Virus record (IMG/VR): IMGVR_UViG_3300027699_000150 | Location: 1-27,694 of that record | DNA from: a virus | Length of the DNA: 27,694 nt | Reading direction: 5' to 3' (one strand) | Shown here: positions 2,348-18,557 of the stretch, in pieces | How positions within the stretch are numbered: the stretch's first letter is position 1 | Layout: each line of letters opens with the position of its first letter | Made by a program: the position numbers and the translations under genes | Notes under the pieces: generated by a model | What the model was told of the DNA's origin: nothing | Databases searched by the model: none | What the model saw: the letters and a program-made list of their open reading frames with translations, nothing else

Positions 2348-2421
2348 GCCCTTAATCTTATCTATAAGTAGTTATAACTACTTACACTAAGGGGAAATAG
2401 ATGAGATCAAGGGCTTTTTTT
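2348..2421 (+). terminator. Intrinsic-terminator-like hairpin overlapping the start of the GT9 gene
   Basis: The left arm 2348-2362 pairs with the right arm 2400-2414: 13 Watson-Crick pairs, one G-U and one A-C mismatch. Seven T follow at 2415-2421. The loop contains a perfect 20-base palindrome (2365-2384), an AAGGGGA Shine-Dalgarno (2389-2395) and an octamer resembling a late promoter (2363-2370). The right arm includes the ATG at 2401. It may end transcripts from the 473-2326 unit and also block translation of the next gene on read-through RNA. Confidence 0.6.
2363..2370 (+). promoter_or_regulatory. Possible late promoter octamer inside terminator loop
   Basis: TATAAGTA differs from the T4 consensus TATAAATA at one position. 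A start six bases downstream (about 2376) would give an RNA lacking the left arm of the 2348-2414 hairpin but keeping AAGGGGA before the ATG at 2401. The off-consensus G lowers confidence. Confidence 0.35.
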
Positions 2422-3348
2422 GTGAATGGAGGTTATGGTAGAACTGTCTGTTCTATTCCCGCATTCGAAGCATATGAAAAGGAATCAGATGATTCTGACT
2501 TTATTATAGTTTGTGAAGGAGGTACTGATGCATTCAAGGGACATCCTTTGTTGGATGATCGAACATATGACAATTGGCATAAAAATTTATTTAAAGAAAA
2601 ACTTGTAAATAGAGATATTATTACTACCGAACCTTATCGAATATGGGAATATTATAATCAAAAATGTAATTTAACACAAGGTTTTGATATACAAATTAAT
2701 AATAAAGGAATTAGAAACCTTCCTAAACCTAAAATGTATCTTTCAAAAGAAGAATTGTTAGTTGGTAGACAATTAATTAATCAAGTAAAAGAAAAAGTAA
2801 AAAAAGAAAAAATTATTATTATCCAGCCCTTCGGAAGGGGAATTCAGCATATAGATAATTCTTTTGTAGATAATACCGGCCGTAGTATTGAATTTAAAGA
2901 TTTCAAAACATTAATTAAAAAATTACAAGAACACGATTTTGGAGTAATAGTTATGGCTGAAATGGGTTTTGATTTTTCTAAAGATAATTTCAAAGATGAA
3001 GTTGCTATGCCAGAAAGTGTTTCATTACGACACTGGACTGCTGCTATTAAATTTGCTAATCATTTTATAGGTTGTGACAGCGTAGGACAACATTTATCAT
3101 ATATAGTTGAGACACCTACAACCGTTATTGTTGGACCTACTTTCCCTATAAATATATCTTATCCAGATTGCGATTTCTTTAATATTGTTGATTTAGGAAT
3201 GAAAGGTAGAGTATACGATCCTATTAGAATTATGCCAGATGAAGCTACTGCTAGACATAATGAAAATTTAATGACAATGACTTCTGATATTCAAGATTAT
3301 GTTGTTGATAGAGTATTAGGAAAACCGGAAGACGACGATGCCGAATAA
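2401..3348 (+). CDS. GT9 (heptosyltransferase-like) glycosyltransferase
   Basis: A 315-residue protein with features of the GT-B family GT9 (ADP-heptose:LPS heptosyltransferases). The N-terminus opens with a hydrophobic strand and Gly-rich turn (AFFVNGGYG) followed by a Pro-containing helix (SIPAF), like the first Rossmann unit of GT9. The C-terminal half holds FIGCDSVGQHLSY at about residues 222-234, then PTTVIVGPTFP. This matches the GT9 nucleotide-sugar site pattern DSGxxHxAxAxxxPxxxxxGxT. Canonical DSG is DSV here. Likely role: transfer of heptose or a related sugar from a nucleotide donor in the cytoplasm; the acceptor is unknown. The ATG at 2401 has AAGGGGA five bases upstream but sits inside a terminator-like stem. 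It overlaps the downstream carbamoyltransferase by 11 bases, so coupled translation is likely. The HldD- and GmhB-like genes on the opposite strand could supply its donor. Confidence 0.6.
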   Translation: MRSRAFFVNGGYGRTVCSIPAFEAYEKESDDSDFIIVCEGGTDAFKGHPLLDDRTYDNWHKNLFKEKLVNRDIITTEPYRIWEYYNQKCNLTQGFDIQINNKGIRNLPKPKMYLSKEELLVGRQLINQVKEKVKKEKIIIIQPFGRGIQHIDNSFVDNTGRSIEFKDFKTLIKKLQEHDFGVIVMAEMGFDFSKDNFKDEVAMPESVSLRHWTAAIKFANHFIGCDSVGQHLSYIVETPTTVIVGPTFPINISYPDCDFFNIVDLGMKGRVYDPIRIMPDEATARHNENLMTMTSDIQDYVVDRVLGKPEDDDAE

Positions 3349-5269
3349 GCCTGTATGGATTGCTGGAATTGCTAGAGGTCACAATGCAGGAATCTGTCTA
3401 CTTAAAGATGGTGAAATTGTTTTTTCTATCGAAGAAGAACGATTTACACGGACTAAGTATGATGGAGGTCCACTTGCTTCTATAGTTAAAGTTTTAGAGT
3501 ATACTGATAAACTAGATTATCTTGTTGTAGCACATACTACTAGTCTTAGTCAAGCCAATGGAGCAATAGAATTTACAGGCGAGAATGTATATACAGGCTT
3601 AGCTAGCAAACTAGGATTAATAGATCGAAAAAAGGATTTACAGAATCATCCGCAAGTTGTAGATTTAAGTCATGTACATCATAAATTGCATGCTGCTTGT
3701 GCTTTTTATCGATCAGGATTTGAATCTGCTATTGGAATAGTAGTTGATGGTGCAGGAACATTTATACCATTATCCATTGGAGGCGACGACACAATGGCTT
3801 TTGAAACTGAAACAATATTTGAATGTTCTTATCCTGGAAATTTTAAAACTTTATTAAGACACTTAGGAACTAGGGGTCCTCATCAAGGAGGAATAGTTTT
3901 AACACCTGACGGCGAAACTGATCATAAATTTCCAACAATAGTATCTGATCGAGCTGGAATTACAAAAGTCTATGAAGCTGTAACGCAATATTGTGGGTTT
4001 CAAGCCATTGAAGCAGGAAAAACTATGGGTTTATTTCCTTATGGAGTACCTAACGATAATATTCCTACGTTGTTTGATAAGGATGTAATAACACCGTTTC
4101 CTTTATCAAATAGAAATTTAATAATTCCTACATATCCAAATGCAGCTTGGATAAATGACGAGATGTATTCAGAATTAAACGAAAAACAACCAGTTTATAG
4201 TCGTGTCCCTCAAGAACAACATCAATTATACGGTACTGCATCAGCAATAACAAGTGGTGGGTCTGAAGATTTAACAGACGCAACAATCAAAAGTAGCACA
4301 CAACACAATGACGGTGGACAACAGCTGGGTGAAATTGATGTAACTTTATTACAAAATCGAAGAGATTTAGCATATGCATGTCAAATACAAACTCAAGAAC
4401 AGGTAGCTAACATTATTAGATATGCATTTGAAACAACTAAACAAAAAAATATTGTAATTAGTGGAGGTTATGGTTTAAATTGTGTTGCTAATTATTATTA
4501 TTTGGATGCATTAAAGGATTTAGATTTAAACATTTATGTAGAACCTGTTTCAAATGATGCTGGAACTGCAATGGGAGCAGCTTTTCTTTTTCATAAAACT
4601 TTAACAAACGATCATGTACCAATGCCTCGGCAAAATATTTTATTCTTAGGACCTAAGTATAAATTTAATACACAACAACTTAAATCTATAGCTAAAGAAT
4701 ATAATGCAGATACCGAAACATGTACTAATGAAAAAATTATAGAATTAATTACTTCAAAAAATATTGTTGCAATTTTTCAAGGCCGAAGTGAAAATGGTCC
4801 ACGAGCATTGGGGAATCGAAGTCTTATATTTGATCCTACATTTAAGGATGGAAAAGAACATGTTAATCAAGTAAAACATAGAGAATATTTCCGCCCCTTT
4901 GCTGGATCAATTTTAGAAGACGATGTACATGAATGGTTTGATTTACGAGGTATGGAATCATCACCTACTATGATGTATGCTGTAAATTGTAAAGAAGGCG
5001 TTGCTGAAAAAATTCCTTCAATTATTCATGTTGATGGAACTTGTCGCATTCAAACAGTTAATAGAGAACAAAATAGTTTATACTACGATATAATAAAATG
5101 CTTTAAAGATAAAACAGGCATTCCTATTATTTTTAATACTAGCTTTAATTTAGGAGGAGAACCTTTAGTAGAAACATTACAAGATGCACTCCGAACACTT
5201 CGTGATAGTGATCTTGAATATTTATACTTACCTGAATACGAATTTCTATTTACGGTAAAGAACGAATAA
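3338..5269 (+). CDS. O-carbamoyltransferase, NodU/CmcH/TobZ family
   Basis: A 643-residue protein of normal length for the family. The N-terminal Kae1-like domain shows GHNAGICLLKDGEIVFSIEEER (split: GHNAG at 14-18, EEER at 32-35), the His cluster SHVHHKLHAA (111-120) used for metal and carbamoyl-adenylate chemistry, and VVDGAG (135-140). The C-terminal YrdC-like domain shows SENGPRALGNRS (about 485-496), YFRPFAGS and NTSFNLGGEP (600-609). The family uses carbamoyl phosphate and ATP to carbamoylate a hydroxyl on a sugar or similar acceptor. A Ser/Thr/Gln-rich stretch around residues 285-335 looks like an insertion. The ATG lies inside the GT9 gene with GGAAG upstream, so the pair is probably translated together. 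Inference: the two enzymes act in sequence on one glycan. Carbamoylation of a modified nucleotide is an alternative, but the late-region position favours a virion or glycan target. Confidence 0.92.
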   Translation: MPNKPVWIAGIARGHNAGICLLKDGEIVFSIEEERFTRTKYDGGPLASIVKVLEYTDKLDYLVVAHTTSLSQANGAIEFTGENVYTGLASKLGLIDRKKDLQNHPQVVDLSHVHHKLHAACAFYRSGFESAIGIVVDGAGTFIPLSIGGDDTMAFETETIFECSYPGNFKTLLRHLGTRGPHQGGIVLTPDGETDHKFPTIVSDRAGITKVYEAVTQYCGFQAIEAGKTMGLFPYGVPNDNIPTLFDKDVITPFPLSNRNLIIPTYPNAAWINDEMYSELNEKQPVYSRVPQEQHQLYGTASAITSGGSEDLTDATIKSSTQHNDGGQQLGEIDVTLLQNRRDLAYACQIQTQEQVANIIRYAFETTKQKNIVISGGYGLNCVANYYYLDALKDLDLNIYVEPVSNDAGTAMGAAFLFHKTLTNDHVPMPRQNILFLGPKYKFNTQQLKSIAKEYNADTETCTNEKIIELITSKNIVAIFQGRSENGPRALGNRSLIFDPTFKDGKEHVNQVKHREYFRPFAGSILEDDVHEWFDLRGMESSPTMMYAVNCKEGVAEKIPSIIHVDGTCRIQTVNREQNSLYYDIIKCFKDKTGIPIIFNTSFNLGGEPLVETLQDALRTLRDSDLEYLYLPEYEFLFTVKNE

Positions 5270-6642: not shown

Positions 6643-9600
6643 ATGGCAAAAAAACAATTAAAAGACTACGTATTTAGACCAGGCGTCGGAGCAACTTCTT
6701 ATGTTTATCCAGATGGTTATAGCTTATTAAATAGCAACAAAGAATTTATACAAAAAGAATCTTCAGCCTGGATAGCAACACAAGTTGCTGCTGCAAATAC
6801 ATACTCTTATGCAGAAACAGTATTAACAGCAAATAAAAATTTTATAGCAGACGAAGCAGTAGCTTGGTTTGACGCTAATAACCCTGGTATACATAATGAT
6901 ACACGTCATGAAAAATGCGAACGTGATACGAAATATAATATTGATGCAATTGTAGCAGATCTTCATACTGGAGGTAATTCAGAAACTATTGCTACAGTAA
7001 AAAAGTATTGGGAAGGTGCTAGTTCTCAATTAGGCGCAGGGGAAGTAACATATGCCTTGTCTGTGAATAACAAAGTAGAAGAAATTATTAATGATTATGT
7101 TCTTACTAATAAAGCATATACAACTGGTCAATCAGGTCACGGATTAGCAGCTTCAGATACTGTAAACTTATTTGGTATTAAAACTAATTGTCAATTTGGA
7201 GATAAAGTTTATCCTCAAATTCCATTTTCAGGAATGTTTAGGATAACTAAAGTACCTGATGCTAATACTGTAGAATTTTTCCTACCAACTAGTGAAATAG
7301 ATCATGTTTATGTTGCTGGCGGGCAAATATTCTTAGCAGCTCCTACAAATGTAGGCGGTGCAACAAATATTAGTACTTTTGAATTTGATAATACAACAGG
7401 TCTTACTACTATAGGATCAAATGTACATGGTTTAGCAGTAGGTGATGCAGTTCAACTAGAAAATATTACAGTTTCTTGTCTTTACGGAAGTAAAGTTTAT
7501 CCAGATACCTCAACTACTTCTGGTATATTTGTAGTTTATGATGTAATTGATAACGATACATTTGTTATTGGAATGGACAAAAGTAAAATTGTACATACCT
7601 ATGTTAGTGGTGGCACAGTACAAAAAGTTAACGTACCCGTAAGTGGTGCTGTTAATATAACTGGCTTTATATTTGATCGGGTTCAAGGCATAGGTAGAAT
7701 TACAGCAGCAGCTCATGGTAGAACTGTAGGAGATATGATTGAAGTCGAAAATGTTAACTTTACTTGTTCTTTAGGAGCAAAAACATATCCAGTAACTTCA
7801 AACACTACAGCATTTACTGTTAGATCACAAAACTTGTCCACAACAACATTTGAAGTAGATATTGGAACAAGTGGTGTTACTCAAACTTATGTTAGTGGTG
7901 GCATTGTAGTTAAATCAGGAGGGGCTAGATTGCCAGTTTCTGATTTTAATTATAATACTGTAACAGGTATTGCTACAATTACTACAGCAACAAGCCAAAC
8001 AATTAATGCAAATACTGTATCAGCTGCAACATATACACCTGCAACAGGTGTAATGGTGTTAACTATTGGAGCACACAGTTATGAATTAAATGACTATATT
8101 ATGATTGCTCCAGAAAGTTTAACTTTTACTTGCGATCTAGATAGCCACGCTACTCAACATAGCTATCCACGGGCAACTGGTTCATCTGCACCTGGTGGGA
8201 AGGATTATGCTTATAATACACCTGTTAAAATTACAGCCACAGGAGCAACAACAATTACTGTAAATGTTGGTATATCAAGTGATACATCTACACATACATT
8301 TGTAAGTGCTACTGCTGGTGGTATATCAGAAAGCGATTCTAATAGTGCAGCAGATAGAGTAAAGTATCTAATAGGAATTATTAATGATGTTACTGAAAAT
8401 GGCTTAGACGCTATTCCTACAGGTCAAATTTATAGTGTATCGGCTGCAACATATACACCTACAACAGGATCTATGCAATTAACTATTGGGTCACACGGTT
8501 ATCAAATTGGTGACACTATTAGGATTGCTACAGAAAGTTTAACATTCACTTGTGCCAAAGATGGCCACGGTACTCAACATAGCTATCCAAGAGCTTCTGG
8601 AAGTACCGCACCAAGTGGAGCTGACTATGCCTATAATTCACTAGTGTTTATTACAGCCATTGGAGCAGCAACTATTACTGTAGATGTAGGTATATCAAGT
8701 GATACATCAACACATACATTTGTAAGTGCCACTGCTGGTTGTATAACATCACCTCCCGCAACTAATAGTGTATCAGCTGCAACATATACACCAGCAACAG
8801 GAGAAATGCAGTTAACTATTGGAACACACAGTTACACAGTTGGTAGCTCTATTAGAATTGCTCCAGCAAGTTTAACTTTTACTTGTGCTTTAGATAGTCA
8901 TGCTAGTAATCATACATATCCAAGAGCAACAGGTTCATCCGCGCCAGGTGGAAAGGATTATGCATATAATGCGCCGCTTGAAATTTCAGTAGTAAATGGC
9001 GATACAATTACTGTAAATGTTGGTATATCAAGTGATACATCAGTACATACATTTGTAAGTGCTACTGCTAATTGTATAACAAGCGATTCGTCTGCTTGGT
9101 CAAATTTTAGTTATGTTGTTGCTACATGTGAACGAGATGTAGGATATCTTCTTGATGCATACTTATATGATTTACGATATGGAGGTACTGCCGAAACATG
9201 TAAAATTATAGGATTTTATTGGGACGAAGAAGTAGCCCAAATAGATGGCAACCGTCTACCAGAAATTAATACTCATGAATTTATACGAGATCTTATTAAT
9301 AATTATGTTCTTACTAATACAGCATATTCAACAACTCAATCAACTGCGTCTCAAGTTATTGATCTTTCAAAAACTACAGAAGCCAATGTAACTTCTCGAA
9401 TTACTTCTTTAACAGGAATTGTAATTGACGTTATCACAAATGGGTTAACTGCATTACCAGGAATAACACCAACAGGTGTAGGCACAATACGAATTCAAGG
9501 ACGTTGGGATCAAGACAACCTTTTATTAATTACTAATACTACAGATAATATCACAATTTATAATTTTGTTACTCCTGAATTAGGTGGAATCTGTAGTTAT

Positions 9601-12600: not shown

Positions 12601-14754
12601 ACTGCTACTCCTCCTGAATTTGATTATGAAGTAGTTAATGTTACAGATGAAAGAACATTTAAAATTAGAGCACAACGCAGATTGGGAGCAGTTGAAGCTG
12701 TGTTTGGTTTTAATGCTCAAATGAGTGTAGTACATTGGCATGGTTCTACTGTCCGAGCAGGAACATATGATGATCAAAATGGAACTTTTTGGGAATATGA
12801 TGGAACACAACTTTGTGTTGTACAAAGAACTGGCACATTCCAATTAGCAGGAACTGTTGCTGTAAATGCAGACTCTAATTATGTAACAGGTGTAGGTACA
12901 AGATTTATAGATCAATTAGCAACTGGTGATAGAATTATTATTAAAGGAATGACGCACGTTGTTACTCATGTTAAAAATCAAACAGCAATGTGTATTAATC
13001 CAGACTTTAGGGGTGTAGTAAATGTAACAGGCGCAAAAGCAATGCGAGTTACTGATAAAAGAATTAAACAAAAAGATTTTAACTTAGATACCTTTGACGG
13101 CAAAGGCGCTAGTGGTTTTGAATTAGATCCTGCAAGAATGCAAATGATTGGAATACAGTGGGCCTGGTATGGTGCAGGTAGAATTGATTTTTGGGCCAGA
13201 AAAGCAAGTGGTAAAATGGTTTCTGCTCATGGTATACGTGGGTCAAATATAAACACAGAAGCATATATGCGTTCAGGTAACTTACCAGTTCGATATGAAG
13301 TAACAAATGAAGGACCTCCAGGGAAACTTTCTGAAGCAATAGATGCTTCGCAAACTACTATTAAAATAGAAGATGCTAGCTTCTTTCCTACATCGGGTGT
13401 TTTATATATAGACAACGAGATAATTTCTTATGATGGAGTATTTGAAAATTCATTATTAAACTGTGTAAGAGGTGCTACATATACAAATTTCCAAGCTGGT
13501 GCTAGTCGGAGTTATACTGCGGCAGCAGCTACTACTCATTCAAATAAAACAGGAATAGTTTTAATATCTAATACTATTACACCGTTAATTAGTCACTGGG
13601 GTTCATCTTACTTAATGGACGGCGGCTTTGATTTTGATCGCGGTTATATCTTTTCATACGCTGAAACAAATATATCAGTAACAACTGTTAAACAAACAGC
13701 ATTTCTATTAAGACTTTCTCCTAGTGTATCAAATGCAATTGTTGGTGACTTGGGTGAAAGAGAGTTACTTAATCGTGCGCAGTTATTACTATATGGTATT
13801 GAGGTTACTTCTGATACTGGAACAGGTGGGTTTATTATTGAAGGTGTTATTAACCCTCAAAACTATCCTATCAACCCAGTAGACATTGGTTGGTCAACTT
13901 TATCAGGACTTGCCCAAGGCGGACAACCTAGTTTTGCACAAGTAGCTTCTGGTGGTTCAGTAGTATGGAGCACAGGTGCTACTCCAACAACTTCAACAGC
14001 AACAGCAGTTGCAACTGTTACAGGAGTTTTAGATTCGGGTCAATATACAAACTGGAATGGATCATATTATGTATATGTAAGTGCTACTGACTATCGGACT
14101 ACTTTTGGAAGTAATAGTTTAGATATTGTATTAGGTAAAAGCATATCTGGTTCAGGTATACAAACAGGTACTATCATTGATGGTGGATATATTTCAGATT
14201 ATGATAATTATGGTTACTTTTATCTTAACTTAAGAACAACAGCACAGGTTGCACAAAATACAGCTTCAGCTTTTACTGTTACTAACAATCCAGCACTTAC
14301 AAATGCTAACAAAGCATTCTTTGATACTACTTCGTTCTTAGCTAGTGGAGCAGCAGGTGGTACTGCTGTAACAAATGGCGGCAGTGTAACTTTCCCCCCA
14401 TCTACTTTTGTTAATACTATATCACTTAAAGAATGGGCTGGTACTGAATATTATGAAGTAACATTTAATAATGCATTTAGTGGTACGCTTGCTAATGGAT
14501 CTGGAACAGTAGAATTTACATTTGAACAACCTCCATATGCACTACCAGGAGAAACTGTATTTTCATTTATTGCTGTTCCAGGCGAACGTTCTACATTAGA
14601 CTTAGCAGAGATGAAAGAATTAACAAATACTCCTATAGGAGGTCGTGGAACATTTCCAAATGGACCTGACGTGCTTGCAATTAACATTTATAAAATTTCA
14701 GGTGCGGCAGTTACAGCTAATATTGTTCTTAAATGGGGTGAAGCTCAGGCTTAA
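6643..14754 (+). CDS. Giant repeat-built virion protein (2703 aa), fibre or baseplate-associated
   Basis: The N-terminus (LKDYVFRPGVGATSY, then KCERDTKYNIDAIVADL near residue 92) is typical of very large structural proteins of marine T4-like phages. A second CERD unit occurs near 829. Residues about 160-430 hold three diverged beta modules of the form HGLxxGD...C..G.K.YP...YVSGG. Residues 459-561, 599-701 and 710-812 hold three near-identical 103-residue modules that appear to be elaborated forms of the same unit. Residues about 1330-1790 hold five further repeats with the pattern YxVGDxLxIxGTxLGG...NDLxIxVTxV. From about 1880 (YPRPDSFFVHRPFDGG) to 2420 the sequence is non-repetitive and contains many Trp and Tyr; a Thr/Ser-rich tail follows. 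No enzyme motif was seen. Probable role: long fibre, or a baseplate-linked host-contact protein. It has no clear Shine-Dalgarno and follows the previous stop by five bases, so translation is probably coupled. Its stop overlaps that of the convergent phosphatase gene. Confidence 0.85.
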   Translation: MAKKQLKDYVFRPGVGATSYVYPDGYSLLNSNKEFIQKESSAWIATQVAAANTYSYAETVLTANKNFIADEAVAWFDANNPGIHNDTRHEKCERDTKYNIDAIVADLHTGGNSETIATVKKYWEGASSQLGAGEVTYALSVNNKVEEIINDYVLTNKAYTTGQSGHGLAASDTVNLFGIKTNCQFGDKVYPQIPFSGMFRITKVPDANTVEFFLPTSEIDHVYVAGGQIFLAAPTNVGGATNISTFEFDNTTGLTTIGSNVHGLAVGDAVQLENITVSCLYGSKVYPDTSTTSGIFVVYDVIDNDTFVIGMDKSKIVHTYVSGGTVQKVNVPVSGAVNITGFIFDRVQGIGRITAAAHGRTVGDMIEVENVNFTCSLGAKTYPVTSNTTAFTVRSQNLSTTTFEVDIGTSGVTQTYVSGGIVVKSGGARLPVSDFNYNTVTGIATITTATSQTINANTVSAATYTPATGVMVLTIGAHSYELNDYIMIAPESLTFTCDLDSHATQHSYPRATGSSAPGGKDYAYNTPVKITATGATTITVNVGISSDTSTHTFVSATAGGISESDSNSAADRVKYLIGIINDVTENGLDAIPTGQIYSVSAATYTPTTGSMQLTIGSHGYQIGDTIRIATESLTFTCAKDGHGTQHSYPRASGSTAPSGADYAYNSLVFITAIGAATITVDVGISSDTSTHTFVSATAGCITSPPATNSVSAATYTPATGEMQLTIGTHSYTVGSSIRIAPASLTFTCALDSHASNHTYPRATGSSAPGGKDYAYNAPLEISVVNGDTITVNVGISSDTSVHTFVSATANCITSDSSAWSNFSYVVATCERDVGYLLDAYLYDLRYGGTAETCKIIGFYWDEEVAQIDGNRLPEINTHEFIRDLINNYVLTNTAYSTTQSTASQVIDLSKTTEANVTSRITSLTGIVIDVITNGLTALPGITPTGVGTIRIQGRWDQDNLLLITNTTDNITIYNFVTPELGGICSYKAGGDDTDFPRYLQVTDTITTITLNTDTSTQAGTDDLQIFVEEEKESAIKTDAIERDRVSTALAMLDADFEYGLQPTKWSAIGVLRGYPSIYEIPGTNTEVYNITSDASSGTGGVGQSLVTVTTQGPHGFIETDPVTVKALENSVAGASRAEGSFVITTVPTSTSFTYYSKAKVGTSNGDVLLTSYTQLRKAAFYTGASIGSPTFSVATQGSGGTMTVELDVPSGNTIIPYDGQTPGTGSPLVSASIPTGSQVTGSIEQSAGGGTYLTPEISGDYISGTSSITFVDSTGILVNLGADSGNGTVTYVETVNHPSNTITLTSPLTSSLIGNTTVYSSITGTNVAPIGTNVEVSIDNTATTYSVTGITTPGNDYSVGDNLQIPGTALGGINVVNDLKLRVATLTGASGGIASLDVITPNTGFNGTHTFTDVPAANVGGSGTGAVFDVVYEDTVFTSVTLAASSVDVNFTVNDRLVITGTTLSTAGVDLVNDLVILVTGVGGGGDITGFTFSGLAPHAQQIYNNPQWTTSGGGSQILFEVTRTGQGDSAGSSIGIYSLQFTDYGTGFANSDTIDIAGVELGGDSSATYDLEITVTGVDGSGTITAYSPVGLAVNTDTKLNINANALIGSGVEFTVDIAGGNYTVTGPFTPNGGVGYGVGQELLIAGNLLLGTSPANDLTITVTSVVADDSTGRGEVLTYTSAGSAVTNTGSFTGIQPSTVAGSGSGALFQITRTNTVYSITAYENSTGYTIGDRLSIAGTLLGGGTPAHDLILRVTSVAGGNVIDGATIESGVGTPGSIFDLICTFTMTEASSSILVKGASVVFEALASITIDFPYAHGLVPGSSFITTITSDDASNNHTLAAGSTRATNIPTEKQLTYQARSGGVIDVSGGDIIGYVYPRPDSFFVHRPFDGGVMLGTGGPQHAAQAIRQSKKYLRYQSGKGVMYTTGAMFAPSYELKSVTADSLEVNALITVVTDDNDHGVQIGGIIRLKGIDTPGYNSGPETATPPEFDYEVVNVTDERTFKIRAQRRLGAVEAVFGFNAQMSVVHWHGSTVRAGTYDDQNGTFWEYDGTQLCVVQRTGTFQLAGTVAVNADSNYVTGVGTRFIDQLATGDRIIIKGMTHVVTHVKNQTAMCINPDFRGVVNVTGAKAMRVTDKRIKQKDFNLDTFDGKGASGFELDPARMQMIGIQWAWYGAGRIDFWARKASGKMVSAHGIRGSNINTEAYMRSGNLPVRYEVTNEGPPGKLSEAIDASQTTIKIEDASFFPTSGVLYIDNEIISYDGVFENSLLNCVRGATYTNFQAGASRSYTAAAATTHSNKTGIVLISNTITPLISHWGSSYLMDGGFDFDRGYIFSYAETNISVTTVKQTAFLLRLSPSVSNAIVGDLGERELLNRAQLLLYGIEVTSDTGTGGFIIEGVINPQNYPINPVDIGWSTLSGLAQGGQPSFAQVASGGSVVWSTGATPTTSTATAVATVTGVLDSGQYTNWNGSYYVYVSATDYRTTFGSNSLDIVLGKSISGSGIQTGTIIDGGYISDYDNYGYFYLNLRTTAQVAQNTASAFTVTNNPALTNANKAFFDTTSFLASGAAGGTAVTNGGSVTFPPSTFVNTISLKEWAGTEYYEVTFNNAFSGTLANGSGTVEFTFEQPPYALPGETVFSFIAVPGERSTLDLAEMKELTNTPIGGRGTFPNGPDVLAINIYKISGAAVTANIVLKWGEAQA
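8017..8325 (+). repeat. 103-residue coding repeat, copy 1
   Basis: First of three exactly 309-base in-frame copies within the giant gene. It begins VSAATYTPATG and ends near TFVSATAGGI. The last 60 bases are nearly identical in nucleotide sequence across copies, which indicates recent duplication. Confidence 0.85.
8437..8745 (+). repeat. 103-residue coding repeat, copy 2
   Basis: Same length (309 bases) as copies 1 and 3, in the same frame, 111 bases after copy 1. It shares SLTFTC, SYPRA, DYAYN and VGISSDTSTHTFVSATAG. Confidence 0.85.
8770..9078 (+). repeat. 103-residue coding repeat, copy 3
   Basis: Third 309-base copy, 24 bases after copy 2. It shares ATGSSAPGGKDYAYN with copy 1 and the VGISSDTS segment with both, and is followed directly by the second CERD unit of the protein. 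Confidence 0.85.
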
Positions 14755-15380
14755 TTATTTTGCATCCATTTTGCAAAAGAACTTAAATCATCAAATATTT
14801 TAGTTTGCTTTTTTATTTTTTGATACGTATGTCTTTTTAATTTTTCTTCAGTTTCGTTTCCGTAACCTGTTCGAACAAGAATAGGTTTAGCACCTATTTT
14901 TATTGCAGCTTTTAAATCTGTAAGTTTATCTCCTACATAATATCCCTTATTAAATTTAATATTAGGATTTTCTTTTTCACAACGTTTAAACATACCAACA
15001 TTAGGTTTTGCAAATTCATCATCTTTTCTATTACTAGAACTATAATATAATGCATCAATACTAGTACAGCCAGCATTACCTAATAATTGAAACATTTTAT
15101 CATGTATTCTATCTACATCACGCTGTGACATTATGCCTTGTTCTATTCCGCCCTGGTTAGTTATAATTACTATTAGAAATCCTAATTTTCTAAGAGAAGA
15201 AATAGCTTCTAAACTTCCTTCTATAGGATTAAAATCTTCAGGATTAATAACATATGTTCCTAAATCCTTATTAATAGTACCGTCTCGATCTATACCAATA
15301 ACAATATTAGAATTTTTTTGTTTGTCAGATATTAATTCTGGAATATCTGAACTCCATCTAATTATTGGGGATTCTACCAT
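14751..15380 (-). CDS. gmhB: GmhB/HisB-N-type HAD phosphatase (heptose-bisphosphate phosphatase-like)
   Basis: A 209-residue HAD protein with all class motifs. Motif I is DRDGTIN at residues 31-37, with a nucleophile Asp and a second Asp. Motif II is IITNQGG (72-78), with the Asn-Gln pair typical of GmhB and HisB-N. The basic residue of motif III is in AKPNVGM (124-130), and motif IV is GDKLTD (150-155). GmhB removes the 7-phosphate of heptose-1,7-bisphosphate in ADP-heptose synthesis. The usual Zn-binding Cys/His loop before the KP motif is absent: that segment reads YYSSSNRKDDEFAKP. Specificity is inferred from the motifs and from the HldD-like gene in the same unit; a histidinol-phosphate or other sugar-phosphate phosphatase is possible. 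The ATG at 15380 has AAGGAGATAG upstream, encoded in the last codons of the SDR gene, one base away. Its stop shares TTAA with the convergent giant gene. Confidence 0.75.
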   Translation of the reverse strand: MVESPIIRWSSDIPELISDKQKNSNIVIGIDRDGTINKDLGTYVINPEDFNPIEGSLEAISSLRKLGFLIVIITNQGGIEQGIMSQRDVDRIHDKMFQLLGNAGCTSIDALYYSSSNRKDDEFAKPNVGMFKRCEKENPNIKFNKGYYVGDKLTDLKAAIKIGAKPILVRTGYGNETEEKLKRHTYQKIKKQTKIFDDLSSFAKWMQNN

Positions 15381-15381
15381 T

Positions 15382-16239
15382 TTAGCTATCTCCTTCTATC
15401 GAATCGTCTGGATGCGGGTAAGAACAAAAAATTCCACCTACGTGTGCAATATCAGATTCAAAAGGCTTCCCTGGAAGGGTTTTACTTACTACATTATTTC
15501 TAAAAATTTCTGCATCATCTACGGGTTGATAACCTAAATGCGAAACTTTATGATTAGAGAAAAATGCTTCTTGATTATTAGATATACCATAAACTATAGT
15601 AAATCCTACTCTCTCTACTGTTAAACAACGTTCTACTAATTGTACAAGGTCTCTATAACTTAGCCAAGTAGCTAAATGTCTTCGATCACTAGGTTCTGGA
15701 AAACAAGAATTAATCCGTAAGCAAGCTGACTCTATATTAAATTTATCAAAATATAATTTAGCTAAATCTTCTACAAAACATTTAGATAATCCATAAAGAG
15801 TATCGGGTCTATGTGTTATATCTGTATCAGCACCTGCCTCACGTTGAACAAATCCAACAGCATGAACAGAACTTGCATAAACGATTCGACTAATACCGTG
15901 CTGTCGTGCTGCTTCGTAAATATTATAACCTCCCTTTATTGAAGAATTAAGAATTTCATTCCAAGGACGTTCTACAGAAGCTGCTCCAAAATGAACAATA
16001 GCATCACAACCTTCTACCACTTTCATTACAGCATTAAAATCACTTAATTCACATTGAATGACTTCTTCATTATCATTTGCCGAAGCCATCGACTCTCGGT
16101 CTGTTAAACGACATACTTCTGCAAGAGGTGCTAATCCTTTACGTAATTCTTTACCTAGATTTCCTGCTGCTCCTGTAATTAATAATCGATTAAATCGAGG
16201 CGTTTCACTCAGTTTTAGGAACTTCTTTAACTTCTGCAT
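15382..16239 (-). CDS. Extended SDR, uronate-dehydrogenase-like
   Basis: A 285-residue NAD(P)-dependent Rossmann protein. It has TGAAGNLG (22-29) for cofactor binding, a Ser pair in YASSVHAVGF (121-130), and YGLSK with Tyr149 and Lys153 as the catalytic pair. The run VHFGAASVERPW, YNIYEAARQHG, RINSCFPEP and DRRHLATWLSYRDLVQL closely follows bacterial NAD-dependent uronate dehydrogenases, which oxidise hexuronates to aldarolactones. In the SSxH segment the usual Asn is Val, so the substrate may differ. It carries an N-terminal extension of about 15 residues that overlaps the cupin gene by 35 bases. The ATG at 16239 is the only good start and has AGGAGATAG upstream. In a phage sugar cassette it may oxidise or epimerise a sugar made by its neighbours; this is inference. 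Confidence 0.75.
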   Translation of the reverse strand: MQKLKKFLKLSETPRFNRLLITGAAGNLGKELRKGLAPLAEVCRLTDRESMASANDNEEVIQCELSDFNAVMKVVEGCDAIVHFGAASVERPWNEILNSSIKGGYNIYEAARQHGISRIVYASSVHAVGFVQREAGADTDITHRPDTLYGLSKCFVEDLAKLYFDKFNIESACLRINSCFPEPSDRRHLATWLSYRDLVQLVERCLTVERVGFTIVYGISNNQEAFFSNHKVSHLGYQPVDDAEIFRNNVVSKTLPGKPFESDIAHVGGIFCSYPHPDDSIEGDS

Positions 16240-16606
16240 TTTGACTATCTCCTGGTACTACTCTATAATTGTCTTCAACTGAATCCGGAGTACTTACTTC
16301 TGTAATACTACTATTATCTTCTAATGCTTCTAACTGGTGTGGTTGCAGGGGCGGGTTATGCCAAACTTGTCCTTCTGTAAGTTCTTGTTGATAAAGAGAG
16401 GCATTGGTTGTGTCTATCCATCTAAGAAGAAATTTTCCTGAATTAACAAACCAAGTTTCATCTTTTTTACTATGAAAATGCATAGAAAACTTACTTCCTG
16501 CTTTTTCAAAAACCATTATTTTACAACAATACAAATCATTAGTTGCCCATATAAGTTCATAACCCCAGGCCTTTTTAACGTGTCCTTCTAATCTAGTTTT
16601 ATCCAA
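16205..16606 (-). CDS. Cupin protein, sugar-phosphate-isomerase-type, TTG start
   Basis: A 133-residue single-domain cupin. Motif 1 is complete: His43, His45, Glu50 and Gly57 in HFHSKKDETWFVNSG. Motif 2 has Gly79 and His90 in GQVWHNPPLQPH. The opening KKAWGYELIWA and the end STPDSVEDNYRVVPGD resemble the cupin domain of type II mannose-6-phosphate isomerases and related sugar-processing cupins. A metal-dependent isomerase or epimerase role is likely, substrate unknown. The start codon is TTG at 16606: no other start precedes the domain, an in-frame stop lies just upstream, and GGAGATAG sits at the right distance (16617-16610). It lies 19 bases after the oxygenase gene and overlaps the SDR gene by 35 bases. 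Confidence 0.75.
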   Translation of the reverse strand: MDKTRLEGHVKKAWGYELIWATNDLYCCKIMVFEKAGSKFSMHFHSKKDETWFVNSGKFLLRWIDTTNASLYQQELTEGQVWHNPPLQPHQLEALEDNSSITEVSTPDSVEDNYRVVPGDSQNAEVKEVPKTE

Positions 16607-16609
16607 AAT

Positions 16610-16617
16610 CTATCTCC
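16610..16617 (-). promoter_or_regulatory. Ribosome binding site that fixes the TTG start of the cupin gene
   Basis: GGAGATAG lies three bases before TTG at 16606. The same eight bases occur before the SDR (16245-16252) and phosphatase (15386-15393) starts. Confidence 0.7.
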
Positions 16618-16625
16618 ACACTTAA

Positions 16626-17312
16626 TTAATCAAATTTTATATCAAATACATTCCAACTCATTGTAATTCGTTCAACATCGCTGGTAAAAGGATATACTTG
16701 ATGCCTAAGTTGTGCTGGAAACATATAAAGTTCTCCTGTTACAGGATATTTTCTATATGCTCCTGCACCCCAAGAACCATGTACCCATTCTAATTGACCC
16801 GGGCAACGAGCATTTGACGCCATAGGTACTGTTCTAATTTCTGAAGAAATTTCTTCAGGAATTTGTACCATAACAATTCCATTAATTACACCAGAATGGC
16901 AATGTAAAGGATTAAATTCGTTTGCTCTCATAAAATTAAACCAAGTACCATTTCCTAAATGAAACTTAATTTTACTATAATCTGGCAAGGGGTTATTTTT
17001 TTCTTTCTCTAATTGAGGAAGCTGCTGTCTTTCCTGTATTTGACAAATTTTAAAATATTCTTGTATGTGAGGCAATAATATGTCTATCATCTTTCCCCGC
17101 ATTTCGTCACTTTCAATATCAGATCCTCTTTGCTCTGCAATATTTCCTGATAACATATCGCCTACAGGAGAAGCAGTACGGCTTAATTCTGCATACTCTT
17201 GGATAAATTTTAAATCGTTTGCGTTTAACACAGTTTCATATATTGGTGGACTAAATGGTAATAAAATACTATGTTCTTTTACAAACTCACCGTTTTTATT
17301 TTCAATATTCAT
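16626..17312 (-). CDS. Putative 2OG-Fe(II) oxygenase
   Basis: A 228-residue protein matching the small phage 2-oxoglutarate/Fe(II) dioxygenase family. The core has a Trp-Phe-Asn strand (TWFNF, 123-127), then FNPLHCHSGVINGIV with His137 and His139 as first-motif candidates. The distal motif is GELYMFPAQLRHQVYPF with His204, and Arg215 in ERITMSWN is the likely 2-oxoglutarate anchor. The two motifs have the order and spacing of the second oxygenase in this window (22049), but the sequences are otherwise diverged and this one has long inserts (about 90-115 and 155-185). Such enzymes hydroxylate proteins, nucleotides or small molecules. Its place between HldD-like and cupin genes suggests a sugar or glycan substrate (inference). 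The gene begins inside the HldD-like gene with an 11-base overlap. Confidence 0.7.
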   Translation of the reverse strand: MNIENKNGEFVKEHSILLPFSPPIYETVLNANDLKFIQEYAELSRTASPVGDMLSGNIAEQRGSDIESDEMRGKMIDILLPHIQEYFKICQIQERQQLPQLEKEKNNPLPDYSKIKFHLGNGTWFNFMRANEFNPLHCHSGVINGIVMVQIPEEISSEIRTVPMASNARCPGQLEWVHGSWGAGAYRKYPVTGELYMFPAQLRHQVYPFTSDVERITMSWNVFDIKFD

Positions 17313-18120
17313 TTATATAATCCACAATATTAATCCAATTAATATCAATAATAGAATTTAATTTACTCAAATCTGCATTAGTATATTTTTGATATTGTAA
17401 TTTTAAATTATCTGGCATAGGTATATATTCTATATCAACTTGATATTTTGATGCTACTGCTTTTGCAATAGCATAAAAACTTACAGGATTTCCGGTTCCT
17501 ATATTATATATACCTTCTGAAGTTGTTTGCATCATTTTTTTATGAACTTTACAAACATCTTCTACACAAATAAAATCTCTAAAATAATTTTCACTATTTT
17601 CAAATATTTGAATCACTTTATTTTCTTTTGCTTGATTTATAAATTTTGTATAAGGACTTGCTTGTTCTTTTTTATGATTTTCATAAGGACCATAAACATT
17701 AAAATATCTAAATCCTTGTACAGTAATATCAAATTCACTTAAATTTTGAGTTACAAATCTATCAAACAAATATTTTGACCAAGCGTACGGTGATTGAGGA
17801 AATAACAACCCATCTTCTGTAAAATGATGTGTAGGACCATAAACACTAGCACTCGAAGCATATTGAAAATTAATTCCTAAAGTATTACAAACTTGTAACA
17901 ATCTTAATGAGTATTCATAATTTTGCTCTATAATCTGATCTACATCAGAAAAAGTAGTATCACTAATTGCTCCTAAATGTACTACCCAATCATAACTACT
18001 AGGATCAGGAATAGTGTTAGGCATAAACTCCCAACCCTCTACTTGATGCCCTTGTTGCATAAAATAAGAAGTAAGATTCTGTCCAATAAAACCTTTATGT
18101 CCGGTTACTAATACTTTCAT
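17302..18120 (-). CDS. hldD: HldD-like ADP-L-glycero-D-manno-heptose 6-epimerase
   Basis: A 272-residue extended SDR, somewhat shorter than the usual 310 or so. It has TGHKGFIG (6-13) at the N-terminus, HLGAISDTT (48-56), NYEYSLRLL, YASSASVYG (87-95) and YAWSK with Tyr112 and Lys116. The HldD-specific segments are present: GFRYFNVYGPYENHK, IFENSENYFRDFICVEDV, GIYNIGTGNP, IEYIPMP followed by a YQxxTNADLSKL end. HldD converts ADP-D-glycero- to ADP-L-glycero-D-manno-heptose, the donor for GT9 heptosyltransferases. The family identity is strong; the exact substrate is inferred. The start overlaps the NUDIX stop as ATGA, so translation is coupled, and the 3' end overlaps the oxygenase gene. The shortening is mostly around residues 30-45, where the nucleotide-binding loop after the second strand is compressed. 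Confidence 0.8.
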   Translation of the reverse strand: MKVLVTGHKGFIGQNLTSYFMQQGHQVEGWEFMPNTIPDPSSYDWVVHLGAISDTTFSDVDQIIEQNYEYSLRLLQVCNTLGINFQYASSASVYGPTHHFTEDGLLFPQSPYAWSKYLFDRFVTQNLSEFDITVQGFRYFNVYGPYENHKKEQASPYTKFINQAKENKVIQIFENSENYFRDFICVEDVCKVHKKMMQTTSEGIYNIGTGNPVSFYAIAKAVASKYQVDIEYIPMPDNLKLQYQKYTNADLSKLNSIIDINWINIVDYINEY

Positions 18121-18557
18121 TTTTCGTCTAATAAACTAATTGTTTTAAATACTGTTTCTAATTTTAAAAGATTTACTTTATTTTGTAAAGTATTACGTAA
18201 GCCTAAATGTAATGGCTTTGGCCATTTACCAAAACTACACCATGAATATCCGCTATGCTCACTATTAAGTACTGGAATAAATTCTGACTGAACAACTACT
18301 ATATAAGTATGAAATTCAAATTGTGCATCATTAGAAACAAATGTTTCTAATGGTAAGGTTTTTTTAATTTTAGGAAGAGAACCTATTTCTTCCTGAATTT
18401 CTCTTTTTAAACCTTCCCACGGTGTTTCAGTATTTTGATTAGTACCACCTACTATACCCCACATATTTGCTTGTTTTCCATTAGATCTATGTAAAAACAA
18501 AAATCTATTTGTGTCAAGGGTATAAAAGAGAGCACCACTACAAACAATATCACTCAT
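18117..18557 (-). CDS. NUDIX hydrolase
   Basis: A 146-residue protein with a complete Nudix box at residues 38-60: Gly38, Glu44, then REIQEEIGS (52-60), matching GX5EX7REUXEEXGU. The strands before it (ALFYTLDTNRFLFLHRS, MWGIVGG) have the usual Nudix order. Nudix enzymes cleave nucleoside diphosphates linked to another group, including nucleotide sugars, dinucleotides and oxidised nucleotides. In this unit, just before the HldD-like gene, a nucleotide-sugar substrate or a housekeeping role is plausible, but the box does not give specificity. The ATG at 18557 lies 13 bases after gp15 with no clear Shine-Dalgarno. The 3' end overlaps the HldD-like gene by four bases. Confidence 0.85.
   Translation of the reverse strand: MSDIVCSGALFYTLDTNRFLFLHRSNGKQANMWGIVGGTNQNTETPWEGLKREIQEEIGSLPKIKKTLPLETFVSNDAQFEFHTYIVVVQSEFIPVLNSEHSGYSWCSFGKWPKPLHLGLRNTLQNKVNLLKLETVFKTISLLDEK

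Follow-up and report, generated by a model that had tools for sequence, protein, structure and literature searches.

A probable ADP-heptose cassette in a marine phage, with a cupin predicted to take the place of the isomerase GmhA

We analyzed the viral DNA of IMG/VR record IMGVR_UViG_3300027699_000150 over its full length (27,694 bases, here called the window), one piece of the genome of a large marine bacteriophage of the T4-like kind. The window contains a gene unit on the minus strand (18557-14751) encoding, in this order, a Nudix hydrolase, an HldD-like epimerase, a 2-oxoglutarate (2OG)-Fe(II) oxygenase, a small cupin, a second short-chain dehydrogenase/reductase (SDR) and a GmhB-like phosphatase. 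Adjacent genes of the unit overlap or nearly abut. An earlier note on this DNA had described the interval 14751-18120 as part of an ADP-heptose pathway. Its HldD-like and GmhB-like genes are indeed present where it had placed them, both on the minus strand; the cupin lying inside the same interval, which we consider the probable supplier of the GmhA step, had been overlooked. Positions and identifications are summarized in Table 1.

Table 1. Genes of the heptose cassette and of the transferase region in the window.
Feature	Position	Strand	Evidence and remarks
Nudix hydrolase	18117..18557	-	PF00293, E 1.5e-13; heads the cassette in relatives, with HldE next there but not in the window
HldD-type ADP-glyceromanno-heptose 6-epimerase, 272 aa	17302..18120	-	TIGR02197, E 9e-69; PDB 1eq2; catalytic residues kept
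2OG-Fe(II) oxygenase, variable cassette member	16626..17312	-	PF13759, E 3e-13; in some relatives only
Small cupin, 133 aa, TTG start; predicted sedoheptulose-7-phosphate isomerase	16205..16606	-	phrog_7851; linkage, exchange with GmhA, residue signature
Second SDR, Azf glucose-6-phosphate dehydrogenase-like	15382..16239	-	NF041293, E 3e-39, below cut-off
GmhB-like HAD phosphatase, 209 aa, zinc loop lost	14751..15380	-	NF006506, E 1e-40; PDB 4pnh, 2gmw
Divergent GT9 glycosyltransferase, candidate heptosyltransferase	2401..3348	+	phrog_8954; family PF01075 matches; predicted fold
NodU/Nol-type carbamoyltransferase, candidate for sugar carbamoylation	3338..5269	+	PF16861, E 1.5e-57; PF02543

The best model for the HldD-like protein is TIGR02197 with 232 bits, followed at 74 bits by the next model outside HldD. 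The score stays below the equivalog cut-off of 274.6 bits, and part of the cofactor half is missing: this half is short by about 28 residues, and most of the substrate half is kept. E. coli HldD is the top match in the PDB (E 4e-46). In the comparison with Salmonella HldD, 111 out of 271 aligned residues are identical (41%) and the catalytic residues S116, Y140, K144 and K178 are all aligned and conserved. On the basis of its sequence we assign the protein to the HldD-type epimerases, with a predicted function in the C6 epimerization of ADP-heptose.

The phosphatase reached 139 bits with its GmhB model (cut-off 178), compared with about 60 bits for HisB models. The HAD catalytic residues D11, D13, K111 and D136 are retained as D31, D33, K125 and D151 of the window protein, and the three aspartates are invariant across the 60 rows of the family alignment. 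The zinc ligands C92, H94, C107 and C109, by contrast, are all replaced in the window protein, and the cysteine ligands of the loop are missing from all 60 rows. Because this defining zinc loop is absent, we refer to the protein as GmhB-like and not as GmhB proper. A placement of the two enzymes outside the HldD and GmhB families, which the earlier note had named as its refutation, was tested; the ranking of profile models and the residue alignments keep both inside.

For a comparison of gene order, 80 IMG/VR loci were collected by the presence of a relative of the GmhB-like phosphatase. Their usual arrangement is Nudix, a protein of 378-424 residues, HldD, cupin and GmhB, followed by a large structural gene on the other strand. 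Curated models, with which the HldD and HAD genes were also identified, show the additional protein to be HldE, consisting of a PfkB kinase and an adenylyltransferase. It is present in 65 of the 66 loci that span the region from Nudix to GmhB, and the sole exception is a near-twin of the window. In the window itself four bases are shared by the Nudix and HldD genes, leaving no remnant of HldE between them. This genotype has lost HldE from its usual place. Profile searches found neither HldE nor GmhA among the open reading frames (ORFs) of the window or in the near-twin record, in agreement with the earlier note. The second SDR between cupin and GmhB is likewise restricted, among the relatives, to the near-twin record (loci L003/L004), and both genotypes are without HldE. 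The occurrence of HldE in the same unit in the relatives substantiates the pathway link between the heptose genes that the earlier note had drawn. Its description as a partial pathway holds for the present genotype, with neither HldE nor GmhA in the window, but not for the phage group as a whole, which carries HldE.

The cupin is a constant member of these loci and is found within two ORFs of GmhB in 77 out of 80. A scan with the cupin only yielded 74 further viral loci, all of which contain a kinase, an adenylyltransferase and HldD within 6 kb, although the viral loci are related to one another and the linkage counts are thus not independent. The accompanying HAD phosphatase is GmhB in 31 of these loci and a small HAD in five; none was recognized in the other 38. 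Since the former three functions are present in 74/74 loci while the HAD protein varies, the stable core of the cassette consists of HldE, HldD and cupin, and the phosphatase is optional. GmhA, a SIS-fold protein (TIGR00441), was detected in 0 of 50 and 0 of 22 viral records, several of them longer than 120 kb, and in none of three complete cyanophage genomes. One candidate for GmhA, phrog_1238 (annotated as 'phosphoheptose isomerase'), was rejected: the P-SSM2 protein of this family (114 aa; locus L084, 9140-9484) matches small HAD phosphatases of the EcbF/BcbF type and not GmhA. The neighboring gene at 8803-9159, labelled 'cysteine dioxygenase' (phrog_7851), is the cupin of the P-SSM2 cassette.

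The cupin is predicted to form a single cupin barrel (predicted local distance difference test score, pLDDT, 91.7). A PDB search with the single sequence gave weak matches to oxalate decarboxylase only, and a profile was needed. At the family level, the D-lyxose isomerase model PF07385 is hit by 35 of 48 members (E <= 0.01, best 2.7e-7) and a mannose-phosphate isomerase model by 22; the window cupin alone is below the match threshold of PF07385. An alignment with the lyxose isomerase of B. subtilis (2y0o) reveals the common motifs Y-C-x-K, H-x-H, K-x-E, a later histidine and E-x-S, almost all of them invariant in 50 sequences. Residues H43, H45, K48, E50, H90, E103 and S105 are conserved in 50/50. 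The cupin thereby contains the manganese-ligand signature of D-lyxose isomerase (H43, H45, E50, H90) together with K48. In the lyxose isomerase of Thermofilum the matching His/His/Glu/His residues bind manganese, and the lysine has been proposed to stabilize a cis-enediol (PMC8378251). Cupin-type phosphoglucose isomerases are also known and provide a precedent for a cupin isomerase (PMC2876114). The reaction predicted here, from sedoheptulose-7-phosphate to heptose-7-phosphate, would be a ketose-aldose conversion of the same kind as that of lyxose isomerase, with a manno outcome.

The cupin is not restricted to viruses. In Woesearchaeota/Nanoarchaeota (DPANN) its relatives occur in operons with the order cupin-HldD-kinase-GmhB-adenylyltransferase, whose genes overlap or abut. 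Exclusivity with GmhA was analyzed in 99 genomes of one DPANN order, 33 of which have a strong adenylyltransferase match, considering 6 kb around this gene. Ten of the 33 regions contain only the cupin, 13 only GmhA, none both and ten neither. The cupin and GmhA also occur fused to the kinase in the archaeal loci: two genomes have a kinase-cupin and three a kinase-GmhA fusion, and in all five the cupin or GmhA part is at the C-terminus. In a kinase tree, which was obtained by a quick search only and contains many weakly supported forks, the two kinase-cupin fusions are placed next to one of the kinase-GmhA type (SH-aLRT support 93), with at least five changes of label across the tree. In DPANN ADP-heptose operons the cupin stands in for GmhA, and in its fusions with the heptose kinase it occupies the position of GmhA.

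The genes for the later steps are located on the plus strand. The GT9-like protein of the window alone has no Pfam match, and 25 of 35 members of its family match PF01075. Its predicted structure (pLDDT 85.8) has the GT9 entries 3tov, TibC, WaaC and WaaF as first structural matches and fits TibC, a protein heptosyltransferase, no less well than WaaC. The family matches and the WaaC/WaaF-like fold uphold the assignment of the gene at 2401 in the earlier note. GT9-like and carbamoyltransferase genes overlap at 3338-3348, suggesting a transfer followed by carbamoylation. A relative of the GT9-like gene directly adjoins a carbamoyltransferase in the cyanophages P-SSM2 and S-CAM1 and lies in the same region in S-SSM7. 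The cluster of these three phages comprises carbamoyltransferase, adenylyltransferase, kinase, small HAD and cupin; their HldD gene is encoded by the other strand. This location within the cyanophage heptose region supports the gene at 2401, despite its distance of 12 kb, as a part of the heptose system, as had been suspected. Based on the cyanophage linkage, the GT9-like protein is a candidate for the transfer of heptose from ADP-heptose, and the carbamoyltransferase probably carbamoylates the transferred sugar. A 7-O-carbamoyl heptose occurs in the lipopolysaccharide (LPS) core of Pseudomonas; a search of the open-access literature returned no paper about this sugar.

Taken together, we consider it likely that this phage interval is an ADP-L-glycero-beta-D-manno-heptose cassette which has lost HldE, and that the cupin performs the GmhA step in the full version. 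It is also probable that the cupin represents a new family of sedoheptulose-7-phosphate isomerases, with a fold unrelated to GmhA, that occurs in marine T4-like phages, cyanophages and DPANN archaea and is exchanged with GmhA as a kinase-fused domain. We propose the following sequence of reactions. The cupin would convert sedoheptulose-7-phosphate to D-glycero-D-manno-heptose-7-phosphate, which the two-domain HldE would phosphorylate at C1. The phosphate at C7 would be removed by GmhB, or by a host or other phosphatase, before HldE adds AMP and HldD epimerizes C6. The GT9-like enzyme would then transfer the heptose, which the carbamoyltransferase would probably carbamoylate. In the phage of the window the HldE step would have to come from the host or from the unsequenced part of the phage genome.

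Concerning the acceptor, we lean towards virion proteins, in analogy to the action of TibC on autotransporters. Cyanobacterial LPS is devoid of heptose and KDO (PMC4390846), yet cyanophages carry the cassette; in the window as well as in cyanophages the cassette is located near tail genes. Both observations favor a virion-protein target. It is quite possible, if not what we expect, that the heptose instead alters the LPS or O-chain of the host against superinfection, which would be compatible with the same pathway. The rfaE gene and glycosyltransferases of pelagimyophages have been read in this sense, as a modification of the host O-chain (PMC7029224), and GT9 includes WaaC and WaaF. The fit of the GT9-like model to TibC and the position of the cassette genes among tail and structural genes, on the other hand, argue against an LPS target. 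Two Cys- and Gly-rich proteins are encoded upstream of the GT9-like gene (2-454 and 473-1579, both on the plus strand; the second without a PHROG match). They are perhaps virion surface proteins and possible targets of glycosylation.

Several observations weigh against an isomerase function of the cupin in a heptose pathway. Roughly every second cupin locus is without a recognizable HAD phosphatase nearby, and the window itself has no HldE. Residue 28 of the window cupin is a cysteine where 48 of 50 sequences have glycine. Its position 13 is alanine where glycine is usual; relaxed constraint after the loss of HldE is a possible explanation for both. Foldseek is non-specific, with quercetinase and oxalate decarboxylase on top and lyxose isomerases at ranks 24 and 35. 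The archaeal exclusivity has a Fisher p of 0.002, a value which overstates independence, as these genomes are relatives of one another and are incomplete. Of the 22 cellular genomes to which the cupin led, five additionally gave a full-length GmhA-like match, in each case outside the cupin operon; three of these five GmhA-like genes adjoin a gene resembling, by eye, a GHMP sugar kinase, as in the GDP-heptose pathway. Finally, some of the bacterial cupin homologues are not neighbors of heptose genes.

The non-specific fold ranking would also suit a cassette which makes ADP-heptose with the isomerase step supplied by the GmhA of the host, the cupin acting later on the finished or transferred sugar. 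Cupins include RmlC-type sugar epimerases besides isomerases, and the cassette has other, variable tailoring genes, e.g. the 2OG oxygenases. The cupin, however, is not variable, being kept in 77/80 and 74/74 loci of the two viral collections. It alternates with GmhA and is found fused to the heptose kinase in its place, and the nearest annotated sugar enzymes are aldose-ketose isomerases. We regard such a late role as unlikely.

More doubtful still is the synthesis of a different nucleotide sugar, in which the shortened HldD-like enzyme, the zinc-less phosphatase and the second SDR would act on another substrate. The scores of both main enzymes below the curated cut-offs, the loss of the zinc ligands across the whole GmhB-like family and the combination of a missing HldE with an extra SDR in the window point in this direction. 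Against it stand the retained catalytic residues and the largely retained substrate half of the HldD-like protein, its identity to Salmonella HldD and the fact that the same proteins adjoin HldE homologues in the relatives. An attachment of the heptose to phage DNA, a purpose considered in the earlier note and a kind of glycosylation that occurs in some phages, found no support and is very improbable: no base-modifying partner was recognized in the window, and the GT9 enzymes of related structure have LPS or proteins as their targets.

Structural proteins recognized in the window include the tail sheath stabilizer gp15, a head-tail adaptor and the tail sheath. The best isolate matches of the latter are from Agrobacterium phage Atu_ph07, Sinorhizobium phage Phosso and PA5oct-type phages of Pseudomonas, all with less than 60% identity. 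The gene psbA was not found in 21 long related metagenomic viral records, but is present in all three comparison cyanophages (P-SSM2, S-SSM7 and S-CAM1). The host of the window's phage group is therefore probably not a cyanobacterium.

Individual cassettes contain additional genes. In one phage cassette a gene resembling, by eye, a class I fructose-bisphosphate aldolase (L182:4371-5159) separates HldE from HldD; it might feed sedoheptulose phosphate. Two flavoprotein genes between Nudix and HldE in another (L202:949-3929) resemble, by eye, tryptophan halogenases, and S-SSM7 has an annotated tryptophan halogenase inside its heptose cluster. One relative has a formyltransferase-like ORF (by eye PurN-like; L009:7117-7635) between its HldD and cupin genes. 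A cupin 66-68% identical to that of the window occurs in the isolate Marinoscillum pacificum (L091:7986-8369), with no recognized heptose genes within 8 kb; this contig may belong to a phage or prophage.

Heptose genes in marine phages are already known. Earlier reports describe a heptose kinase, HldD and related genes among the host-like genes of marine T4-like phages, namely in cyanophages (PMC7378029) and as rfaE in pelagimyophages (PMC7029224). The new element is the predicted non-homologous substitute for GmhA, for which gene linkage, exclusivity, fusions and active-site residues speak; among the open-access papers searched, we found neither a report of this cupin isomerase nor a link between any cupin and the GmhA step. 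If the prediction is correct, a gap in a textbook sugar pathway would be closed for phages and archaea, and the widely copied label 'cysteine dioxygenase' of phrog_7851 would be wrong. Many marine phages would then possess a route of their own, not a borrowed one, from a pentose-phosphate intermediate to activated heptose, which would make a direct search for heptose on virions worthwhile. The prediction for the cupin can be tested with one small protein.

Compared with the bacterial ADP-heptose pathway (GmhA, HldE, GmhB, HldD; WaaC/WaaF), the phage set is similar in combining homologues of HldE, GmhB and HldD with a transferase of the GT9 family. It differs in the absence of GmhA, in place of which we propose the cupin as an analogue and not as a GmhA member. 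In addition, the HldE of the phage relatives is compact (~379 aa), GmhB has no zinc site, HldD is shortened and the genes are situated among tail genes. The cyanophage report (PMC7378029) does list a phosphoheptose isomerase, whereas in P-SSM2 the gene with this label is the EcbF/BcbF-type HAD protein described above and the cupin carries the dioxygenase label. With the cupin-fold sugar isomerases (D-lyxose isomerase, cupin phosphoglucose isomerase and type II phosphomannose isomerase) the phage cupin shares the fold and, as predicted, the type of reaction, and with D-lyxose isomerase also the metal ligands and the K-x-E signature. Unlike these enzymes it is shorter, distant in sequence and linked to heptose genes, and its predicted substrate is a C7 phosphosugar. 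The GT9-like protein, finally, resembles the protein heptosyltransferases TibC/BAHT in its GT9-type fold and in the expected donor ADP-heptose, at a sequence identity of ~12%.

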